In this document: positions 6,743-33,995 of the stretch, piece by piece
How the letters are laid out: every line of letters starts with the position of its first letter
How positions within the stretch are numbered: the first letter of the stretch is position 1
Virus record (IMG/VR): IMGVR_UViG_3300042344_000800
Span: 26,647-90,646 of that record
Length of the DNA: 64,000 nt
Direction: 5' to 3' (one strand)
Origin: a virus
Notes under the pieces: generated by a model
Told to the model about the DNA's origin: nothing
Seen by the model: only the letters and a program-made list of their open reading frames with translations
The model's database searches: none
Made by a program: the position numbers and the translations under genes

Positions 6743-6867
6743 AGACGGCTTAACCCCACTCCACAAGCTAACACGAGCTAACTGCCCGTTTTACCCTAGT
6801 TAAAGGGGGTTTAACCTTGATTGATTAAGCTTGGTTCTCACTTAACCAGTTTTTGTTGGGTTAACCC
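6743..6867 (-). promoter_or_regulatory. conserved long leader, copy 1
   Basis: The sequence downstream of the promoter at 6869-6897 is nearly identical to those at 57098-57216 (plus strand) and, in part, 20692-20774 (minus). It starts with the palindrome GGGTTAACCC (6858-6867), followed by potential hairpins (TGGTT...AACCA; ACCC...GGGT). No ORF follows directly in this copy. Confidence 0.75.
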
Positions 6868-6868
6868 C

Positions 6869-6897
6869 AGTATAACAGAGAGTAGATTAAATGTCAA
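6869..6897 (-). promoter_or_regulatory. early-type promoter with GGGTTAACCC operator
   Basis: TTGACA (6892-6897), 17-bp spacer, TATACT (6869-6874); the palindrome GGGTTAACCC lies 1-2 bp after the -10. It belongs to the same family as 14554, 20625, 20776, 21033 and 57068. Transcription runs leftward toward the tRNA-like RNA region. Confidence 0.85.
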
Positions 6898-7011
6898 GGG
6901 GTTCGAGAAAAAACTTTTAGACTTCGGGAAAACTTTATTCTAAAAGTCTAAGCACTGAGTTTCAGGTAAGGGGCTAAACATTCGCTAACAGGGGGAGGGA
7001 GGCAAACCAGT

Positions 7012-8783: not shown

Positions 8784-8812
8784 ATCTTATGCGATTCTCC
8801 CAGAAATGTCAA
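8784..8812 (-). promoter_or_regulatory. promoter of FGE-type gene copy 1
   Basis: TTGACA (8807-8812), 17-bp spacer, TAAGAT (8784-8789). The spacer holds one half of an inverted repeat (TCTGGGAGAAT), whose partner is degenerate here but intact in copy 2. Confidence 0.8.
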
Positions 8813-8862
8813 GTGTATGAGAGAATCTTTTTTTGAACAAGTGTACTACTGATAACTGATTA

Positions 8863-9990: not shown

Positions 9991-10033
9991 ATCCTATGAT
10001 ATTCTCCCAGAAATGTCAACTGTCTGGGAGAAT
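9991..10033 (-). promoter_or_regulatory. promoter with palindromic operator, FGE-type gene copy 2
   Basis: TTGACA (10014-10019), 17-bp spacer, TAGGAT (9991-9996). A perfect inverted repeat with 11-bp arms, ATTCTCCCAGA (10023-10033 on the minus strand) and TCTGGGAGAAT (10001-10011), brackets the -35 box with an 11-nt centre. A repressor binding here would block the promoter. Confidence 0.8.
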
Positions 10034-10225
10034 CTTTTTTTGAACAAGTGTACTACTGGTAACTAAGCGAAGTGCGGGGACAAGTGGTGAAGTTAGGGGT
10101 AGCCGTTATAAAAACCCATGTACCTACCTCCCCCCCTACCAACATGAGTTAGGACAAAAAAAAATTCGCCCACGGAACAGTGTAGACGACCTAGAAAAAA
10201 TAACTAACAAGGAAACCTTTTCTCT

Positions 10226-14418: not shown

Positions 14419-14560
14419 ACTGAATGGAGAAATATTATTTTCTAATGAGACTAACGGGGTGTATGTAGTTACCACCCCTGAGACTTTAGTTCAAACAATA
14501 ACATCCACAAATAATGTCTTCTATGTGACAACAGTTTTTGTCGGGTTAAACCCAGTATAA
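14408..14560 (+). CDS. small 50-residue protein overlapping the preceding gene
   Basis: ATG at 14408 lies inside the last codons of the 14020-14418 gene (11-bp overlap), suggesting translational coupling. The product begins MAIELNGEILFSNETNG and ends VFVGLNPV. Its last codons are encoded by the operator and -10 of a minus-strand early-type promoter (14554-14582). Too short to classify. Confidence 0.45.
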   Translation: MAIELNGEILFSNETNGVYVVTTPETLVQTITSTNNVFYVTTVFVGLNPV

Positions 14561-14582
14561 CAGAGAGTAGATTAGATGTCAC
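14554..14582 (-). promoter_or_regulatory. early-type promoter with operator, partly degenerate
   Basis: GTGACA (14577-14582; first base differs from TTGACA), 17-bp spacer, TATACT (14554-14559), then GGGTTTAACCC (14543-14553). It points left, antisense to the 14020-14560 genes, so it may be a relic or a source of antisense RNA. Confidence 0.6.
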
Positions 14583-15886
14583 GTTGACATGGTGAAGTTT
14601 GGTTCTAGTCCTGAGTCTTCTGTTTCTAGGACGGAGAAATTTACCACTTGACCACCGCAGAATTTAGCGAACCCTTCTTTGACTGAGGAAGTGAGATTAG
14701 AGAAGTCAGCAGAAACACGGACGTAAGTGGCTTTTACTTTTTGCTCCATCTTGTTTAGGACTTGTCTCTGGATATTATAAAGATTCTGCCAAGCGGCTTT
14801 AAAAATATCCTTATCAGATTTGGGGGGTTTTCTAAGCTTTAAAGAGTAAGGAGCGTAGTTTAATGGGTCGTCAGAATAAACGAATTGGGAAACCCACTCG
14901 TAAAAAAGAACCTCACATTTGCCTTTGTTCCAAGCATTTATTTGCCTTCTACTGTAGGATTTTCCTACTTGCCATGGGAACATCTTTTCTAAAAGCATAG
15001 TAATGGAAAGGGGATTGTTATCAAGGTCTCTCCCCAATTGATTGCCCCAACAACCCTCGTGTTCAATTGGTATGCCCATACTAGAGTAGGTTTTAACGGC
15101 TCCTACGTTATCATAGAAATTAACCCAAGCTCTAAAGATACCCTTCTTATCAAGTTCAGCCTTAAACGTATGGAGAGCCTCGGCAAGTTCACCACAGGGG
15201 CGGTTAAATTTATTTTCGCTGAACTCTAGAATGGAGAACATATAGTCAAGATAGGTGTTGGTGTGTTCACGCCAGTGAGCCATAGTCTGGTCAATATAGG
15301 CCTTTCTCCCATCTACATCTTCAGGGGGGATGCAAGAGTAAGCAAAAAAATCCTCATTACGGATTAAATCATCCGCACTACGAACCTCTTTAGGTCTAAG
15401 TCTAGGCTCTCCTTTCTCAACACTTCTAACTAAATCATGAAAAATTTCGTGGGTAAAATCCATTGCAATTTGTAATTGTAATAGGACAGCACTACCCGCC
15501 GCAACAGTCTGAGAGCCAGTTAGTTTTACGGCTTCTGTTTTCTTTTTGAAGGGAGTGTTAACCATAGTGGTTAATACGGAACCCATAGCGGCGTTGTAAG
15601 CGGCTTGTAGACCCTTATTGGAAGTAGCCTTAGTTTTCGGGGGGTTATAAACGGGTAAAAGTTTTTTTAGGAGTTTATAGATGTCCACGAAATGACGGCT
15701 GGTATAGCCAGTGGGTGTGACAACTTTCTCTACAAAAAGTTTAAATTCTTCGTGAACGGCGATAAAAGTGTCGGTATCCACAATTTCCGCCTCTAAAGCT
15801 TCGATAGAGACGTTATTAAAGTCTCTGAAGTCCATTTCGACTTCTACTGTGGAAGTTTTTAATATTTTGTTGGCTGTTCCTAACAT
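14579..15886 (-). CDS. unknown early protein, 435 residues
   Basis: Mostly helical, soluble, with scattered Cys and Trp; no Walker, nuclease or helix-turn-helix motif found. Segments such as LQIAMDFTHEIFHDLVRSVE and WVSQFVYSDDPLNYAPYSLK are not recognised. It lies downstream of the AAA+ helicase gene on the same strand and has its own early-type promoter (15914-15942), so it is probably expressed early and may act in replication or host takeover. The role is inferred from position only. Confidence 0.7.
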   Translation of the reverse strand: MLGTANKILKTSTVEVEMDFRDFNNVSIEALEAEIVDTDTFIAVHEEFKLFVEKVVTPTGYTSRHFVDIYKLLKKLLPVYNPPKTKATSNKGLQAAYNAAMGSVLTTMVNTPFKKKTEAVKLTGSQTVAAGSAVLLQLQIAMDFTHEIFHDLVRSVEKGEPRLRPKEVRSADDLIRNEDFFAYSCIPPEDVDGRKAYIDQTMAHWREHTNTYLDYMFSILEFSENKFNRPCGELAEALHTFKAELDKKGIFRAWVNFYDNVGAVKTYSSMGIPIEHEGCWGNQLGRDLDNNPLSITMLLEKMFPWQVGKSYSRRQINAWNKGKCEVLFYEWVSQFVYSDDPLNYAPYSLKLRKPPKSDKDIFKAAWQNLYNIQRQVLNKMEQKVKATYVRVSADFSNLTSSVKEGFAKFCGGQVVNFSVLETEDSGLEPNFTMST

Positions 15887-15913
15887 AGGTGTCTTTGGGG
15901 TAGCAATAACTAA

Positions 15914-15942
15914 AGTATAACAGAGGGTATGGCAGGTGTCAA
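15914..15942 (-). promoter_or_regulatory. early-type promoter
   Basis: TTGACA (15937-15942), 17-bp spacer, TATACT (15914-15919). No GGGTTAACCC palindrome follows. It precedes the 14579-15886 gene. Confidence 0.85.
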
Positions 15943-15992
15943 GGGGGTTGAGAAAAATTTTTTAGGTTTTAGCCACCCCCGTAGGTCTAAAA

Positions 15993-19253: not shown

Positions 19254-19316
19254 AATGTTCCCCAAGGGTAAAGTGTTTGTTTTAACGGGTCAACTTTGTG
19301 TTGGGCGGTTACTCCC

Positions 19317-19345
19317 TGTATGACAGAGAGTAGATTAGATGTCAA
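19317..19345 (-). promoter_or_regulatory. early-type promoter overlapping a stop codon
   Basis: TTGACA (19340-19345), 17-bp spacer, CATACA (19317-19322). The TGA of the -35 is the stop codon of the gene at 19342-19587. Confidence 0.7.
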
Positions 19346-19587
19346 GGGGTTACTTTAGCCAAAGCCAAGTAAGGGGCTAATGCTTTCAAAGGTAGAGTGA
19401 CTCTTAAAGCTACCAAAGCATGAAATCGTAAGTCCTCTTTTTTGATACCCTCAGCAAGTTCTATGGCTTCGGGTATTAGTTCTGGGGGTAAATTAGGGGC
19501 TAACGCCACTAACCCTTGGGAACGTTCGGCTTCCGTGTCGAAACTCTTTACAATTTCTAAAGCTTTCCGCATCAAATTCTCAGACAT
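19342..19587 (-). CDS. small alpha-helical repeat protein
   Basis: 81 residues from the ATG at 19587, chosen because GGAG lies seven bases upstream (an ATG at 19608 is also in frame). The repeats GLVALAPNLPPELIPEAIEL and HALVALRVTLPLKALAPYLA resemble the ALAPHLPPELLPEALEAA-type helical repeats found in long arrays in cyanobacterial proteins. Here only about two units are left. It may be a captured fragment serving as a protein-binding module; this is inference. Confidence 0.65.
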   Translation of the reverse strand: MSENLMRKALEIVKSFDTEAERSQGLVALAPNLPPELIPEAIELAEGIKKEDLRFHALVALRVTLPLKALAPYLALAKVTP

Positions 19588-20577: not shown

Positions 20578-20624
20578 AAATTTGTTGGGTTTTGTTTAGA
20601 TTTGGTTTTTGTCGGGTTAACCCC

Positions 20625-20653
20625 AGTATAACAGAAGGTATATTAGGTGTCAA
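20625..20653 (-). promoter_or_regulatory. early-type promoter with operator
   Basis: TTGACA (20648-20653), 17-bp spacer, TATACT (20625-20630), palindrome GGGTTAACCC (20614-20623). Proximal promoter of the 19663-20577 gene. Confidence 0.85.
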
Positions 20654-20691
20654 GGGGTTTGAGAAAATTCTTTTTGGGCTTTTCTCTGCCG

Positions 20692-20774
20692 CTTTACCCT
20701 AGTTAAAGGGGGTTTTAACCCTGATTGATTAAGCTTGGTTATCACTTAACCAGTTTTTGCTGGGTTAATAACCC
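20692..20774 (-). promoter_or_regulatory. conserved long leader, copy 2 (shortened)
   Basis: Matches the leaders at 6743-6867 and 57098-57216 for about 80 bp after the promoter at 20776, then diverges before the second promoter at 20653. Its palindrome is expanded (GGGTTATTAACCC). Confidence 0.75.
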
Positions 20775-21008
20775 CAGTATAACAGAGAGTAGATTAGATG
20801 TCAAGGGGTTTAGGTTATTTCTTTTTTCCTGTTTTTTCTGTTCAATCCAATCCTGGAGTACCGTCCTCCAATCTAGATGGACTACTTCATCAGAGCCATC
20901 GAAGATTACCTTGAGTATGGTGTACTCACCACTTTCCAGACCTTGTTGCTCAACCTCTGTCAAAACTGGGGTTTGATATGTTTCGCACGGTGTAATTATA
21001 ATGTACAT
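20742..21008 (-). CDS. small early protein, 88 residues
   Basis: The N-terminal part, MYIIITPCETYQTPVLTEVE, is a plausible small soluble domain. The last roughly 22 residues (NPLTSNLLSVILGLLTQQKL) are encoded by the next early-type promoter and leader, so the ORF runs through regulatory DNA. It has its own promoter with operator (21033-21061). Not recognised. Confidence 0.6.
   Translation of the reverse strand: MYIIITPCETYQTPVLTEVEQQGLESGEYTILKVIFDGSDEVVHLDWRTVLQDWIEQKKQEKRNNLNPLTSNLLSVILGLLTQQKLVK
20776..20804 (-). promoter_or_regulatory. early-type promoter with operator, inside an ORF end
   Basis: TTGACA (20799-20804), 17-bp spacer, TATACT (20776-20781), then the expanded palindrome GGGTTATTAACCC (20762-20774). 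Distal of two tandem promoters for the 19663-20577 gene. Confidence 0.85.
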
Positions 21009-23540: not shown

Positions 23541-24176
23541 ATGGTCAATATTGCCCACGGATTGAAACCCAAGAACCGCTATCAAGAACAGTTTCTACGG
23601 TCTTTACGGACAAATACCATTTCTATTGGTGTTGGTGAGGCTGGTACTGGTAAGACTCTGATTGCGATGTATTCCGCCCTTTTAGCTCTTAATAATCCAG
23701 ATGACCCCATTAATAGTGTTTTATATGTAAGACCGTTTGTAAGAGACAGGGATGAGGTTGATATTGGGGCTATGCCAGGTGATTATGGGGAAAAAGTAGA
23801 TTCATTGGGAACTCCCCTATGGACTAATCTTTCTGAAATTGCCCACCCTAAAGATTTCCAGAAGCTCCGTTCTACTATAGAAATTAGCCACATCGGTAAT
23901 ATTAAAGGAGCTAGTTTGTCTAATACCTTTATTATTTTTGATGAGGCTGAGGACGCTACTGAACGTCTGTTTAAAGCCGTGGTAACTAGAATTGCACACG
24001 GTTCAAAGCTCTGTATTATCGGAGACCCCACCCAATGTAGTTTGAAAACTGAAGCCTATTTACCAATTGCCGCAAACCGGTTGAATGATGTGGAAGGTGT
24101 TGGGGTAACTTTCTTTCCGAAGGGTACGTCGGTTCGCCATCCAATTCTGGCCAAAATTTTAGAAGCACTAGGTTAA
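23541..24176 (+). CDS. phoH: PhoH-like ATPase
   Basis: 211 residues: Walker A GEAGTGKT, Walker B FIIFDEAEDAT, and KLCIIGDPTQ, the usual PhoH order. PhoH-like genes are common in cyanophages; the molecular role is uncertain (RNA-related ATPase or helicase suspected). It is followed by a terminator/promoter module at 24205-24241. Confidence 0.9.
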   Translation: MVNIAHGLKPKNRYQEQFLRSLRTNTISIGVGEAGTGKTLIAMYSALLALNNPDDPINSVLYVRPFVRDRDEVDIGAMPGDYGEKVDSLGTPLWTNLSEIAHPKDFQKLRSTIEISHIGNIKGASLSNTFIIFDEAEDATERLFKAVVTRIAHGSKLCIIGDPTQCSLKTEAYLPIAANRLNDVEGVGVTFFPKGTSVRHPILAKILEALG

Positions 24177-24204
24177 TCTAAAGTTACTTCTGAATTAAAT
24201 ATTA

Positions 24205-24241
24205 AACCACCTTGACGGGTGGTTTTTTTGTTGCTATAATA
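24205..24241 (+). promoter_or_regulatory. combined terminator and promoter, module 1
   Basis: A terminator hairpin AAACCACC/GGTGGTTT (24205-24212/24219-24226) with T-run has the loop TTGACG (24213-24218). That loop is also a -35 box, 17 bp from TATAAT (24236-24241). The same bases end the phoH transcript and start the next. Confidence 0.75.
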
Positions 24242-24269
24242 AACGGGATACCTATTTCTGGACTAAACT

Positions 24270-25001
24270 ATGTCTAATTTATCTGTTTTTGATTTCAACT
24301 CCAACAACATTCGCTTTGAAAATCGTGAAGGTCGGGTCTGGGTTTGTCTAACCGATATGGCTAAGGCTAGTGGGAAACGGATTAATGATTGGAATCGACT
24401 AAATGCTACAACCGAGTTCCTGACTGAGTTTGAGGGCATTGCGGGGATTCCCGTAATGGTGTCTAACGTTGGGGGCTTACCTGCAACTACTGGAACATGG
24501 GCAATTGAAGAAGTCGCTTTAGAGTTTGCTGGTTGGTGTTCGGTGAAGTTCAAAATCTGGATGCTACAGCAAATCAAAACGCTAGTCACAACTGGCACAG
24601 TTAGTCTGCACCATGTAGAACAGCCTAAATTAACATCTCGTCAGGTTGCTGTTGAAACAGCTAAGGCAGTTGTGGAAATTGAGGGATTGATTTCTCGAAA
24701 TAACCCCCGATTAGCCCAATTTCTAATTGACCATGCTATTTCCGATTTAATGCCAAGTCAGGCTACTTTAACTGGGGATTCCTTGCAAGGAGTTGTTGAG
24801 ATTGCACTAGAAATGGGATTTAACCCTTCCCATGATAATCGGTCTCAACTTGGAAAATACGTTAAAAAGAGTTGTCGTCAACTAAGTCAACAAGAGAAAC
24901 GGTTAGTCAACGGGGCAATGCGAGAGATAGCAGTTTATCCGGCAAATCACCCAGAAGTGAGAGAGGCAATAGAAGGATTTTTCAGCACTATAAACGGTTA
25001 A
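24270..25001 (+). CDS. KilA-N domain phage regulator
   Basis: 243 residues. The N-terminal about 110 residues form a KilA-N domain: EGRVWVCLTDMAKASGKRIN, then DWNRLNATTEFLTEF and WCSVKFKIWMLQQIKTL. This is the DNA-binding module of many phage antirepressors and regulators. The C-terminal half is helical. It is transcribed from the terminator-promoter module 1 and followed by module 2. Confidence 0.85.
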   Translation: MSNLSVFDFNSNNIRFENREGRVWVCLTDMAKASGKRINDWNRLNATTEFLTEFEGIAGIPVMVSNVGGLPATTGTWAIEEVALEFAGWCSVKFKIWMLQQIKTLVTTGTVSLHHVEQPKLTSRQVAVETAKAVVEIEGLISRNNPRLAQFLIDHAISDLMPSQATLTGDSLQGVVEIALEMGFNPSHDNRSQLGKYVKKSCRQLSQQEKRLVNGAMREIAVYPANHPEVREAIEGFFSTING

Positions 25002-25020
25002 CGATACAAAATAAAACATT

Positions 25021-25056
25021 AACCACCTTGACGGGTGGTTTTTTTGTTGCTATAAT
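25021..25056 (+). promoter_or_regulatory. combined terminator and promoter, module 2
   Basis: AACCACC/GGTGGTT stem (25021-25027/25034-25040), loop TTGACG (25028-25033) as -35, 17 bp to TATAAT (25051-25056). Nearly identical to module 1. Confidence 0.75.
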
Positions 25057-25083
25057 AAGAAAGTACATTTAACCCATGTAGCC

Positions 25084-25410
25084 ATGAATATCAAACCCCC
25101 ACAGTTTAAAAGTAAGCAGGATTGTTGCGACTTTTTGGCACTAGAGTATATAACTCCCCCAAGAACTATCAAACTTCCAGAGGGTGTTATTGACTTTTTA
25201 ACAGATGAGGAATTGGTAATAGTCTCAGAAGATTACAATGCCGAAAAAGCCATTAGACTAATCAGTATTTTGCACATATACTTCCCACTGACACATAAAG
25301 TCATTTATTTGTTTGGAGAAAGTCATCCATTATCTGATAGTTTGCAGTTCACTTGCGACGCTCTAGGGATTCAAATACGTTACCCTGGATTGCCGCTTGA
25401 TGTGTGGTAA
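25084..25410 (+). CDS. unknown 108-residue protein
   Basis: Small soluble protein between terminator-promoter module 2 and the degenerate third copy. Begins MNIKPPQFKSKQDCCDFLAL; ends GIQIRYPGLPLDVW. Not recognised. The insulated single-gene unit suggests an added cargo gene. Confidence 0.65.
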   Translation: MNIKPPQFKSKQDCCDFLALEYITPPRTIKLPEGVIDFLTDEELVIVSEDYNAEKAIRLISILHIYFPLTHKVIYLFGESHPLSDSLQFTCDALGIQIRYPGLPLDVW

Positions 25411-25433
25411 TGATTTTGGATGTCGGTAAATTT

Positions 25434-25458
25434 AACCACCTTAACCGGTGGTTTTTTT
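25434..25458 (+). terminator. third hairpin of the AACCACC family, terminator only
   Basis: Same stem AACCACC/GGTGGTT and T-run, but the loop is TTAACC and the later sequence lacks a -10 (TAAAAG), so the promoter half has been lost. Confidence 0.75.
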
Positions 25459-25514: not shown

Positions 25515-26357
25515 ATGTACTCTCCCGTTGAAGCTTTTACCACTTGTGTTGGTTATTCGGATTTTTTGTCTTGGTCTTTACTTTTCAATCGTCCGCAGTT
25601 CGACAATCTGGTAGTCCTCACTACACCCCAAGACCTGAAGACCCAAGAGGTATGTTCCTTTCACCATGTTCAGTGTTATGCTACTGAAGCTTTTTTTGCT
25701 GAGGGTCAAACTTTCGGTAAATCCCAGGCAATCGATGAATTTTTGAAGTCTAATATTTTATCTAAAAGCGGTTGGCTAGTCCACTTTGACTCTGATATTG
25801 TTCTACCCCCTCGCTCAATGAATCATATCCGAAAAGAGCTTATAGAAACCGATTGTATTTACGGTATTGACCGAGTTAGTGCAGTAGGTTTTGATAAATG
25901 GACAGATTATGTTAGCGACCCTAACGTATTTTATGAACAGGAAGTCTGGCTCAGATTAGACCGTTTCCCGATTATGCCCCGTGTCTTTAAGGATGGGTAT
26001 TATGTCCCCATTGGATTCTTTCAAGCTTGGTATGCTCCCAATAGTGAAAATTCCTACCCTACAGTCCATCAAAATGCCGCTAGAGCCGATATGCTATTTG
26101 CTATGCGATGGGGAGGACAGAAGCGCAAATTAATCGCTAATGCTGTAGGAATCCATTTAGAGTCAGAACATGGAAATCTAGGGGTTAACTGGAACGGACG
26201 GAAAACCCCCCCCTTTAAGTCTAGAGTAATTCCAGAACAAGGAGGAGAGTCTGTCTTAGAACTGTGGGAACAAGGGGGAGAGTCGGTCTTAGGAGTGTGG
26301 GAACAATTAGAAAAGGCTTTAGAAGAATTTAAGGATATATGGTTCAGTAACTATTAA
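25515..26357 (+). CDS. GT-A type glycosyltransferase-like protein
   Basis: 280 residues. The HFDSDIV segment supplies the DxD metal/nucleotide-sugar site after an N-terminal Rossmann-like part (LVVLTTPQDLKTQEV), followed by GIDRVSAVGFDKW. It probably modifies virion protein, DNA or host surface sugars; the substrate is unknown. The C-terminus carries two 12-residue repeats, EQGGESVLELWE and EQGGESVLGVWE, from a 36-bp tandem duplication (about 26237-26308). A late-type motif lies upstream, a terminator follows. Confidence 0.75.
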   Translation: MYSPVEAFTTCVGYSDFLSWSLLFNRPQFDNLVVLTTPQDLKTQEVCSFHHVQCYATEAFFAEGQTFGKSQAIDEFLKSNILSKSGWLVHFDSDIVLPPRSMNHIRKELIETDCIYGIDRVSAVGFDKWTDYVSDPNVFYEQEVWLRLDRFPIMPRVFKDGYYVPIGFFQAWYAPNSENSYPTVHQNAARADMLFAMRWGGQKRKLIANAVGIHLESEHGNLGVNWNGRKTPPFKSRVIPEQGGESVLELWEQGGESVLGVWEQLEKALEEFKDIWFSNY

Positions 26358-26415: not shown

Positions 26416-26487
26416 TCTGGGTTGTGGGAGTCGAACCCACCTATGCCGTCTTATGAGGACGGTGCTTATCCGATAAGCTAAACCCAG
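26416..26487 (-). tRNA. tRNA with CAU anticodon (Met or Ile2)
   Basis: Complete cloverleaf: acceptor CTGGGTT/AACCCAG with discriminator A, D-arm GCTTATCGGATAAGC, anticodon stem CCGTC/GACGG with loop CTCATAA, T-arm GTGGG-TTCGACT-CCCAC. No encoded CCA. C1-G72 pairs, so it is not a canonical initiator; elongator Met and lysidine-modified Ile(CAU) cannot be told apart here. Confidence 0.93.
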
Positions 26488-27401: not shown

Positions 27402-27431
27402 AGTATAACTTAGCCTTTATGGGTTTGTCAA
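27402..27431 (-). promoter_or_regulatory. sigma70-type promoter
   Basis: TTGACA (27426-27431), 18-bp spacer, TATACT (27402-27407). Upstream of the 26528-27367 gene. Confidence 0.85.
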
Positions 27432-27439
27432 CCCCCAAC

Positions 27440-27467
27440 AAAAAAAAAATCCCTAGCTAGGCTAGGG
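27440..27467 (-). terminator. rho-independent terminator
   Basis: On the minus strand, stem CCCTAGC-CTAG-CTAGGG followed by A and a T9 run; ends the 27491-28072 transcript. Confidence 0.85.
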
Positions 27468-28135: not shown

Positions 28136-28243
28136 CATATTTTATCCGTAAGAAAAAGCTATCAATGAAGTATAAGTAAATCTTATCGCTAGGGTAAGCC
28201 CCCATCGCCCAATCTAAGACAGAAGCGATTGAGCGTAGAGATA

Positions 28244-30004
28244 ATGGCAAAACCTGGAAAATTAAAATTATATTTACACCCGGGACAACAAGAAGTATTC
28301 GGAGACCCTGCCAGATTCAAGGTTTTGGTTTCATCGAGGAGATTTGGGAAAAATTTAGAAGAAAACACCCCTATTTTGACCAAAAATGGTTATAAACCGA
28401 TTAAGAAAATTTTCACTGGGGACACTGTATATAATGAACAGGGTTTACCTGTAAAAGTTTTAGCGGCTACCGAGGTATTTGAAGATGATTGCTACGATAT
28501 TGTCTTTGAAAATGGACAGGTTATCAGAGCAGGGAAAAACCATGAGTGGGTTTTGGAGCTAAACCGTAAGTTAGAGTCTAACACATGGACTACTGAGGAA
28601 ATATTCTATTACCATCAAAACATTCAAAAGGGAAGTAAAAAACTTAATTTATCTGTTCCTCGTAAAATTTTGCATCCGTGGGAAAGCTTTTTTATAGCCG
28701 ATGTAATCCCTGTTGGAAGACATCGAACTAAGTGTATTCAAGTAGAAGGAGGGATTTTCCTATGTAGTAAAAGTAACATCCCTACCCATAATTCCAGGCT
28801 ACTATTAACTACTTTAATCGAAAGGGCTATTAATTACAACGGCAACTATGATAAAGCTTCACCCCCCGTCGTTTTGCTCGTTATGCCTAGCTTAAAACAG
28901 GCTAAACAAATCCACTGGGAACCACTTGTAAATATTCTAGATGGACACCCAGCAGTTAAAAGAATTTTTAAGTCTGAATGCAGAATCGTTTTTAAAGGAA
29001 ATAAACCAGACATCATCCTCAGAGGAGCCAATGAAGATAACGGCGACAATATGCGGGGGTTGAAGATATATTTTGCTGGATTAGATGAGATGCAAGATAT
29101 AAAACCTATTGTATGGACGGAAGTGATTCGCCCTGCTTTAGTTGATACTAAAAATAGTACATCTCTAATTATTGGTACGCCCAAGGGGGCAGGTACATTT
29201 TTCCATAGTCTTTACCTACAAGGTGGTGAAGTTCCTAATTGGGCTAGTTTTTTAAAAACAGTTTATGATAATCCCTTTATTCCCCTTGATGAAATCCAAA
29301 GAACCAAAGAGTCATTACCCGAAAAAATCTTTAGACAAGAATTTTTAGCATCTTGGGAATCTTTTGATGGTCAGATATTCTCAGATTTAGATAAGAGACA
29401 CTTACTGGATGATGACGATTTACCGACAAAATTTGACCAAGTATATATCGGAGTGGACTGGGGAGATGTGAATCCTGCCCTAGTAGTGGTGGGAAGACGG
29501 GGAGCCGCTTATTTTGTGATTGATTGTTGGGAAAATCCCAACCCTAAAGCGGCCATTGAACAACGAGTCCACAATGAGAAAGCCATTGAGTTAGCCAGAA
29601 CGCATGGTGTCAACCGTGGATATGCTGACCCGTCACAACCGGGAAGAATTTTAACCATGAGAAAAGCGGGTGTTCCCAAGTTAATGGAGGGCTATAATAG
29701 GGTATCAGAAGGTAATGGGGTGGTTAACACTTTATTACACCAAGATAAACTTTTTATTGCCAAATCCTGTAAAAGGGTTTTTGAGGACATGACTGCATAT
29801 CACCGAGAGTCTAAAGAAGGGAATGTTACCGAGAAAGTGGCTGAAGGGCAAAGAGACCATTTTTGCGATGCTTTACGTTACGTTTTGGCTACTTTGGAGC
29901 ATCGGAATATTGAGAATATCATCGATAGTATGGGTGCAAATACCCTAATACCCAGTGTCCCCCAAGATGATAGTCTCTACGGAAATTATAATTCTGGCTA
30001 TTAA
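28244..30004 (+). CDS. terL: terminase large subunit interrupted by an intein
   Basis: 586 residues as translated from the ATG at 28244 (a TTG five codons upstream is in frame). The ATPase part shows the P-loop region SSRRFGK, cut by the intein and resuming with SRLLL, and Walker B YFAGLDEMQD. The RuvC-like nuclease part shows VYIGVDWGDVNPALVVV and RDHFCDALRYVL with the catalytic acids. The motor packages DNA into the prohead and cuts the concatemer. After splicing, the mature protein should be about 439 residues, a usual TerL size. The portal gene follows on the same strand. Confidence 0.92.
   Translation: MAKPGKLKLYLHPGQQEVFGDPARFKVLVSSRRFGKNLEENTPILTKNGYKPIKKIFTGDTVYNEQGLPVKVLAATEVFEDDCYDIVFENGQVIRAGKNHEWVLELNRKLESNTWTTEEIFYYHQNIQKGSKKLNLSVPRKILHPWESFFIADVIPVGRHRTKCIQVEGGIFLCSKSNIPTHNSRLLLTTLIERAINYNGNYDKASPPVVLLVMPSLKQAKQIHWEPLVNILDGHPAVKRIFKSECRIVFKGNKPDIILRGANEDNGDNMRGLKIYFAGLDEMQDIKPIVWTEVIRPALVDTKNSTSLIIGTPKGAGTFFHSLYLQGGEVPNWASFLKTVYDNPFIPLDEIQRTKESLPEKIFRQEFLASWESFDGQIFSDLDKRHLLDDDDLPTKFDQVYIGVDWGDVNPALVVVGRRGAAYFVIDCWENPNPKAAIEQRVHNEKAIELARTHGVNRGYADPSQPGRILTMRKAGVPKLMEGYNRVSEGNGVVNTLLHQDKLFIAKSCKRVFEDMTAYHRESKEGNVTEKVAEGQRDHFCDALRYVLATLEHRNIENIIDSMGANTLIPSVPQDDSLYGNYNSGY
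28352..28792 (+). other. mini-intein in the TerL Walker A motif, class 3 type
   Basis: 147 codons inserted between GK and S of the P-loop. Block A is LEENTPILTKNGYKPIKKIF; the C-terminal end is IPTHN followed by S. Residue 1 is Asn, not Cys or Ser. Trp at intein position 66 (NHEW), Cys at 128 (TKCIQV) and Thr at 145 (PTHN) match the W-C-T triad of class 3 inteins, where the internal Cys starts splicing. There is no homing endonuclease domain. Confidence 0.85.
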
Positions 30005-32272: not shown

Positions 32273-33703
32273 CTATTGGGGTAGCTCAGTTAAGAATTTT
32301 ATTAGGATTCCTCTGGCTCCATTTAAATCTCTGTCTAAACTTTCGTTACTCTGAGATTTGATTACTTTCCTCCCACCTAGATTAGCTATTATTTCCCCTG
32401 TCCATGATACGGTTTTGGAGGTATAAGCCTCAGAAACTATTATTAGTTTTTTACCAAATTTATTGGCTTTGAACTTTAATAATTCCTTAAACTCATAATG
32501 TCCAAAATTTAACATTGAACGGGTAGTAGATTTATTGATTTTTCTGTCCTTCTTTTTAACCATTTCACCGGTGTTAAAGCAGGGTAGCAGGATTACATCA
32601 AAGTTATCTACTAGAAATCTACTAATTTTGTGGTGGAGTTCTTTCCTCAGATTTCTTATCTTTAATGTGGTTCGTTGTTGCCACATTCTTAGATAATTAA
32701 TCCGACTTTGGTTTTTGGTTTTAGCTATTTTAGATTGGATTTTGTCTGCTTTATGGCATAGTTTAGCCAATCTTTTAATGGCTTCTTGACCAAATTTACC
32801 GAAAACCCCATTAGACGAGAAAATAGTTTGGAAAGTTCTAACACCAGGGTCTAATGCTACAATCTTTAGGTCTTGGTTTTCGACTTCTGGATTATTAGCA
32901 ATATCTTCAGTATAAATTAGGTAGAACAATCCCCCAGTAGTTGTGAGGGTTAGACCATCAAAACTACCCCTTGTGTCTGATTTTAGGGGGGTTTCTAGTT
33001 TTAGGTTTCGGGGGGCTAACACTCCCTTAGCTGAGAGTATTTCCTTTTTTAGGTTGATAGTTTGTCGGGGCTTTTTTCTAGATTTGAATTTTAACTCAAA
33101 CCTTTCAACTAACCCCGCTTTTAATTGGGCAAACCCTACTTGTTGGGCATTGATAGCTTCGGTGATAGCCTCCTTTACTGTATTTATGTTTATGCAATTG
33201 GTTAACCAAGTGTGTTTCTCCAACCAAAATTGAAAGAATGTGTCACGGATGTCATAGCTTGACAAACCTTTTCTTTCTTTCTTAGTCTTTAAATCACAAT
33301 TAGCCCCAATTTTACCGTTTATCAGCAAATCTACAGTTTTATTGTAAACAAACCGATATTGAGAGATTAGCTCATTCAGTAGATTTTGTTGAGTTTTGTC
33401 GGGGTAAAGTCTTATCTTCCTCGATATTTTTGTTGTTTTTTCTAAGTCCGTAGACTCTGCAACTGAAAATATGGAGGATTGATAGTAAGTAGGGGGTAAG
33501 TTCTTGTTCGGGACTTGTTTGAGTATTGTTGAGAACCACGATTGTTCCACCGTTCTTGAGGAAAAGGTATTGGAACAATTCAAATCCGAATCGGCAGAGT
33601 CTATCTCGGTGGGAGATAGCAAGAGTGAACTAATCTCCTGAGAGTAATCTGTCCAATAGGGTTTGAATACCTTTTCTTTTGAAGTTAAGTCCAGAACCGA
33701 CAT
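32273..33703 (-). CDS. tnpB: TnpB of an IS607-type element
   Basis: 476 residues if read from 33703, but the first about 95 overlap tnpA in another frame; the true protein probably starts near KISRKIRLYPDKTQQ (about 33420). RuvC-like features: KIVALDPGVRTFQTIF (first Asp) and LDRDLNGARGI (last Asp). At the middle catalytic place the family's F-E-T pattern reads PCFNTGEMV, with N where E is usual. The C-terminal zinc-ribbon cysteines are absent (YTSKTVSWTGEII, no CxxC). TnpB is an RNA-guided nuclease; this copy may be inactive or a divergent zinc-less type. Confidence 0.8.
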   Translation of the reverse strand: MSVLDLTSKEKVFKPYWTDYSQEISSLLLSPTEIDSADSDLNCSNTFSSRTVEQSWFSTILKQVPNKNLPPTYYQSSIFSVAESTDLEKTTKISRKIRLYPDKTQQNLLNELISQYRFVYNKTVDLLINGKIGANCDLKTKKERKGLSSYDIRDTFFQFWLEKHTWLTNCININTVKEAITEAINAQQVGFAQLKAGLVERFELKFKSRKKPRQTINLKKEILSAKGVLAPRNLKLETPLKSDTRGSFDGLTLTTTGGLFYLIYTEDIANNPEVENQDLKIVALDPGVRTFQTIFSSNGVFGKFGQEAIKRLAKLCHKADKIQSKIAKTKNQSRINYLRMWQQRTTLKIRNLRKELHHKISRFLVDNFDVILLPCFNTGEMVKKKDRKINKSTTRSMLNFGHYEFKELLKFKANKFGKKLIIVSEAYTSKTVSWTGEIIANLGGRKVIKSQSNESLDRDLNGARGILIKFLTELPQ

Positions 33704-33995
33704 CTGTAATAATCTCCGAATCGGGGTAAACTGATTTCAAGAAATCGACCTGTCTAGCCAAATCAGCAGACTGTTTTCTTGAACTAACCCTAGCATAACA
33801 GATAACTGAGGGTTTGTCAAGAGGGTCGGCTAAATAGGATTCAACATCGTAATATCGTTGACCTGCGGGGTTTTTAATCCCCTTAATCAAACCGTCATCA
33901 AAATATTTTCTAAGGGTATGGGGGTGAAGCCCTAATTTGGAGGAGGCTATTCTAGAAGGAACGAGCATAAACCAGTTATCAGTGTTCATAAACAA
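33372..33995 (-). pseudogene. tnpA: IS607-type serine recombinase TnpA, nonsense-disrupted
   Basis: The N-terminal MerR-like DNA-binding domain (LGLHPHTLRKYFDDGLIKGI) and the serine recombinase motif CYARVSSRKQSADLARQVDF are intact. A TAG at 33630-33632 then stops the frame. Beyond it the same frame continues HRDRLCRFGFELFQYLFL and on to a TGA at 33372, so one stop codon splits an otherwise full-length (about 207-residue) gene. The catalytic Ser is in ARVSS. Transposition in cis is probably lost unless the stop is read through. Confidence 0.8.

Follow-up and report, generated by a model that had tools for sequence, protein, structure and literature searches.

Each of two near-identical blocks of DNA on either side of a KilA-N domain gene would appear, with a probability of about 0.82, to be a nested terminator-promoter which borders a single-gene cassette. 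The stretch analysed here (the window, 64,000 nucleotides) is part of a virus record of 90,646 bases (90.6 kb). The virus is likely a freshwater cyanophage, since one of its structural proteins shows 81.6% identity to the major capsid protein of Microcystis phage Mic1; this long-tailed phage, the closest isolate by capsid, has been described as a cyanosiphophage (PMC11237433). A DNA search for isolated phages near the window region yielded none. The cassette region contains the following features:

23541-24176 (+): phoH, constant gene 5' of the cassettes (Pfam PhoH, E 3.7e-41; flank identical among relatives)
24204-24242 (+): module 1, putative nested terminator-promoter at the junction of phoH and the KilA-N gene (sequence, scan, beyond chance; block in seven relatives)
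24204-24229 (+): predicted terminator of module 1, hairpin 24204-24225 and T-run 24223-24229 (fold -12 kcal/mol, z -3.56)
24212-24217 (+): -35 box TTGACG of module 1, in the hairpin loop (sequence and scan)
24232-24240 (+): extended -10 TGC-TATAAT of module 1, spacer 17 (scan; predicted start near 24247)
24270-25001 (+): KilA-N domain gene, cassette 1 (Pfam KilA-N, E 2.2e-15; swapped or duplicated in relatives)
25021-25058 (+): module 2, putative nested terminator-promoter at the junction of the KilA-N gene and a 108-aa open reading frame (38 nt equal to module 1; fold -13 kcal/mol, z -3.81)
25021-25045 (+): hairpin 25021-25040 and seven T 25039-25045 of module 2 (sequence)
25028-25033 (+): -35 box TTGACG of module 2, in the hairpin loop (sequence and scan)
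25048-25056 (+): extended -10 TGC-TATAAT of module 2, spacer 17 (scan; predicted start near 25063)
25084-25410 (+): 108-aa open reading frame, cassette 2 (family unassigned)
25434-25458 (+): third hairpin and T-run, loop TTAACC, without -10 (fold -13.9 kcal/mol; probably a plain terminator ending the cassette region)
25515-26357 (+): 280-aa gene, constant, 3' of the cassettes (present in all three gene arrangements, see below)

Module 1 consists, from 24205 to 24240, of AACCACC, TTGACG, GGTGG, TTTTTTT, GTTGC and TATAAT, and module 2 has the same letters at 25021-25056; the pair, reported at these places by the first-pass annotation, was recovered as an exact repeat of 38 nt ending in TATAATAA. 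Module 1 separates phoH from the KilA-N gene, and module 2 separates the latter from the 108-aa open reading frame. The hairpins start at 24205 and 25021, 19-28 nt past stop codons, and the -10 boxes end 27-29 nt ahead of start codons. TTGACG lies inside the loop of AACCACC/GGTGGTT; the hairpin is followed by seven T and an extended -10 (TGCTATAAT), with a spacing of 17 bp between -35 and -10. The usual sequence characters of an intrinsic terminator, i.e., a GC-rich hairpin and a T-run just past a stop codon, are present, and the predicted RNA folds of both modules have energies of -12 to -13 kcal/mol (z -3.6 to -3.8). Two details of the original description need adjustment. The placement of TTGACG in the loop is correct, but the loop has six nucleotides only when Watson-Crick pairs alone are counted; the predicted RNA fold adds a closing U-G pair, leaving a loop of UGAC and a stem of 8-9 bp. 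The T-run is indeed found in the 17-bp spacer, but covers 7 of its 17 bases instead of filling it, the first five being the 3' arm of the stem and the last five GTTGC, including the TG of the extended -10.

No Rfam families were found at the modules; a tRNA gene (26416-26487, - strand) was detected by Rfam shortly 3' of the cassette region. Searches of Pfam and PHROG gave no matches for the 108-aa open reading frame or for the 280-aa gene, and no relatives of the former were found outside the same phage type.

At the third hairpin (25434-25453) the sequence is AACCACC-TTAACC-GGTGGTT, followed by a T-run, with TAAAAG at the position of the -10. Here the stem is kept and both boxes are absent, as had been noted; the statement that they were "lost" gives a direction to the change which cannot be polarised, because the promoter is missing at this place in every relative seen.

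The window contains other promoter arrangements. One promoter is repeated several times, its best copies having the form CCCC-TTGACA-N17-TATACT-GGGG, and an inverted repeat AACCCC/GGGGTT, a candidate for a shared operator, frames the entire promoter. The copies are:

6849-6918, 14534-14603, 15894-15963, 19297-19366, 20605-20674, 20756-20825 and 33772-33841 (-): promoter framed by AACCCC/GGGGTT
57068 (+): promoter framed by AACCCC/GGGGTT

In two further promoter copies (8784-8857 and 9991-10064, - strand) the -35 TTGACA is placed between the arms of a long inverted repeat, in a loop of 11 nt; the arms in the better copy are ATTCTCCCAGA/TCTGGGAGAAT. There is no T-run on the promoter strand, and the copies stand ahead of two similar duplicated genes. 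At 27402-27467 (- strand) a terminator (CCCTAGCCTAGCTAGGG and a T-run) is followed directly by a consensus promoter, an adjacent and non-nested pair in the same genome. Among the genes, that of the terminase large subunit (28229-30004) has an apparent intein-like insert, and the relative L006 (9098-11746) has a second one; two inteins were reported for the terminase of Mic1 (PMC7156551). By eye, the translations of two overlapping genes at 32273-33995 (- strand) resemble the TnpB and serine-recombinase pair of an IS607-type element.

A scan with the hairpin revealed seven close relatives which share the block, and two further contigs where the hairpin has no -10 behind it. Between phoH and the constant 280-aa gene three gene arrangements were found, in contigs which are otherwise 95-99% identical:

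L007, L009: a single KilA-N cassette
L001, L006: two tandem KilA-N cassettes
window, L002, L003, L005: KilA-N gene and 108-aa open reading frame

Comparison of the window with L006 showed, at module 2, identity over 213 nt upstream and over the 38-nt block, and divergence thereafter; at the third hairpin the difference extends to its first base, where 34 nt of identity begin. Since the arrangements thus diverge exactly at the block edge at two junctions, it is supported that the blocks delimit shuffled single-gene cassettes, as judged from the alignments, and the proposal of insulated single-gene cassettes gains from the swapping and duplication of genes at the elements among close relatives. 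The pattern at the block edges is what the exchange of single genes would leave, and we infer that recombination at the blocks caused the gene differences. The modules of the window are nearly invariant among these relatives; the evidence for selection therefore comes from other phages.

Viral contigs were scanned with the pattern TTGAC-N6-T5-N7-TATAAT, in which no hairpin was required, and at least 115 unique sites outside the family of the window were obtained. A site was regarded as nested when its -35 lay within a hairpin whose stem ended at the T-run and had a minimum of 6 bp, 3 or more of them GC pairs. Of the 115 sites listed, 21 were nested, compared to 0.32 expected from shuffling of the 5' flank, and a control pattern with a permuted hexamer gave none in 91. 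The 21 listed sites fall into roughly seven groups by sequence similarity (our own grouping); a stop codon on the same strand was present within 120 nt upstream in 20 of them, and 17 are situated between co-directional genes, i.e., they also precede a start codon. Four free stem positions were paired in 91/91 unique sites, in three combinations, whereas independence of the two sides would predict 48.5. When the stem AGGGATC/GATCCC was held fixed and loop and -10 were left free, a -10 at 16-18 bp was found with 79 of 80 TTGAC loops vs. 1 of 33 other loops, and with the window's own stem fixed in 4/4 TTGAC loops (one family) vs. 11/109 other loops; sites from related phages are not independent, and p-values for these counts are indicative only.

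Many of the marine contigs bearing the element match marine cyanophages. Nested forms were also present in the isolates P-SSM2, P-SSM3 (right after a gp23-like gene) and S-PM2. Staphylococcus phage vB_SscM-1 has both nested and adjacent forms, and Staphylococcus phage PT1-4, a phage otherwise different from vB_SscM-1, has a nested form with a similar stem. Because the same layout recurs in many other phages with different stem sequences, it represents, on comparative grounds, a regulatory design which has been used repeatedly rather than an accident of this locus. No nested elements were found among 76 predicted promoters of KVP40 and 94 of T4, and the commonest marine module sequence had no matches in isolates. 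Block matches in Lactobacillus phage phiAQ113, Vibrio phage pYD38-B and Synechococcus phage S-SSM4 were rejected, as they have an extended -10 after the terminator and a loop without -35; in S-SSM4 (L671:901-936) this arrangement precedes a transaldolase gene.

Three other explanations may be considered. Plain terminators could have acquired the loop TTGACG by accident and TATAAT by chance, the second block being a mere duplicate. Promoter-like matches alone are in fact at chance frequency in the window (34 vs. 41.1 in shuffles), as are terminator-like matches (17 vs. 17.6); the third hairpin serves without a promoter, and six contigs of unrelated origin, two of them viral and four bacterial, carry the module hairpin with no -10 behind it, so that a promoter cannot be deduced from the hairpin by itself. 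The joint occurrence, however, is far above that in shuffled sequence: the nested combination was observed twice, whereas 400 dinucleotide shuffles of the window gave a mean of 0.0025 and never more than 1. The hairpin pattern of 25 nt, with 3 mismatches allowed, gave 3 matches vs. 0 expected. The enrichment of nested sites over the permuted hexamer and the dependence of the -10 on a TTGAC loop at constant stem likewise speak against accident, which is thus unlikely. Together with the stem covariation and the co-directional junctions, that dependence makes the proposed dual use, one element stopping one transcript and starting another, well supported by comparison.

The palindrome might also serve as an operator, to which the KilA-N protein or some other regulator would bind, covering the -35 and repressing the promoter; termination would then be secondary. 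At both promoters it does overlap the -35, and the KilA-N gene, driven by one of them, belongs to a family described as transcription regulators; yet the T-run invariably follows on just one side, the third palindrome stands at the end of a gene where there is no promoter, and the same geometry exists in phages with unrelated stems and neighbours, which renders this explanation quite improbable. Even less credible is the extrusion of the hairpin as a cruciform in supercoiled DNA, which would block sigma binding and make the promoter sensitive to supercoiling. As single-stranded DNA the hairpin folds with -6.6 to -7.3 kcal/mol, which would allow for it, but the z of the fold is just -1.9 to -2.6, the stem has a mere 7-9 bp, and no other pointer towards extrusion was noticed; the earlier suggestion that extrusion could hinder sigma binding is therefore unsupported.

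For the nested terminator-promoter the following course of events can be envisaged. RNA of the upstream gene would fold into the AACCACC/GGUGGUU hairpin and end at the U-run, and the same DNA, with the -35 in the loop, the T-run in the spacer and the extended -10, should be a strong promoter for the sigma-70-type polymerase of the host; the transcript of the next gene would begin about 22 nt ahead of its start codon. A conflict simpler than extrusion is to be expected: a polymerase terminating at the T-run would physically cover the promoter, and since it sits there, termination and initiation should exclude each other in time. Bacterial polymerase can be handed on to nearby promoters in vitro (PMC6978380, PMC11347151), and a polymerase which has just terminated may perhaps be passed straight to the next gene. 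In addition, the repeated blocks could supply short homologies for the gain, loss and exchange of genes.

In Mic1 and in distant phages with a PhoH about 65% identical, no modules were found after phoH, just an ordinary hairpin. In Mic1, where phoH is a late gene (PMC11237433), the gene after phoH is mazG, in opposite orientation; the KilA-N gene of Mic1 is situated at another site, flanked on both sides by copies of a different terminator hairpin, with its promoter 28 bp past the first of these. A second mode of nesting was noticed near 74537 of Mic1 (- strand; L349:14513-14537), where the 3' arm of a terminator after a ribonucleotide reductase gene shares bases with the -35 of a predicted promoter, and in several viral contigs, e.g., L046 and L079.

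The closest counterparts would seem to be the PeSL (promoter early stem-loop) cassettes of T4-type phages, which were reportedly described by Arbiol et al. in 2010 and Comeau et al. in 2014. Like these, the element of the window joins a terminator and a promoter, is repeated, and stands at junctions of variable genes which relatives exchange. An intrinsic-terminator stem-loop and a strong sigma-70-type promoter can be recognised in its sequence, and the three arrangements with divergence at the block edge point to gene exchange between close relatives, by presumed recombination. In the T4-type phage RB49, however, there are ten adjacent junctions, with 12-32 bp between the end of the stem and the -35, and no nested ones, whereas in the window the loop of the terminator contains the -35 and the spacer of the promoter contains the T-run; moreover, the window phage is not T4-type, its nearest isolate being the cyanosiphophage Mic1. 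We have not used the name PeSL because terminator and promoter of RB49 are adjacent, never nested; most likely the element is a nested variant which works like a PeSL, set apart from it by the RB49 junctions. An account of PeSLs in PMC4503421 names a terminator stem-loop with a strong sigma-70-type promoter, repeated in the genome at junctions of variable genes, where close relatives exchange genes.

A looser likeness exists to the morons of lambdoid phages (as defined in PMC1524935), single genes with their own promoter and terminator and a patchy distribution among relatives; such features are recognisable here in the sequence, with none after phoH in Mic1, but promoter and terminator are fused in the window and common to neighbouring cassettes. 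In Staphylococcus kayvirus vB_SauM-515A1 the early promoter p98 directly follows the terminator t97, as backed by RNA-seq, and late transcripts read through (PMC7698491); unlike the element of the window, this pair is described as immediately consecutive and is not nested. Motifs with a TATA-box and an inverted repeat ahead of many genes of the haloarchaeal virus HGTV-1 have been proposed for regulation and shuffling, and were likened to PeSLs by others (PMC3950731); they share the repeated combination of promoter and inverted repeat with the window, but the promoter is of the archaeal type. A text search of the literature for overlapping promoter-terminators, with the primary PeSL papers lying outside the search, produced one synthetic-biology paper only.

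It is conceivable, although we consider it somewhat doubtful, that the -35 in a terminator loop is a general element of phages which has evolved repeatedly, abounds in marine T4-type cyanophages, occurs also in staphylococcal phages, is under joint selection on stem, loop and -10, and has so far been described only in the form of adjacent pairs. The coupling of loop and -10 indicates that a terminator loop can carry a second, selected function. The element would offer a natural DNA test case with a polymerase-release point and a promoter within the same 30 bp. As a compact and recognisable mark of the borders of phage gene cassettes, it should help to annotate transcription units and to predict sites of gene swapping.
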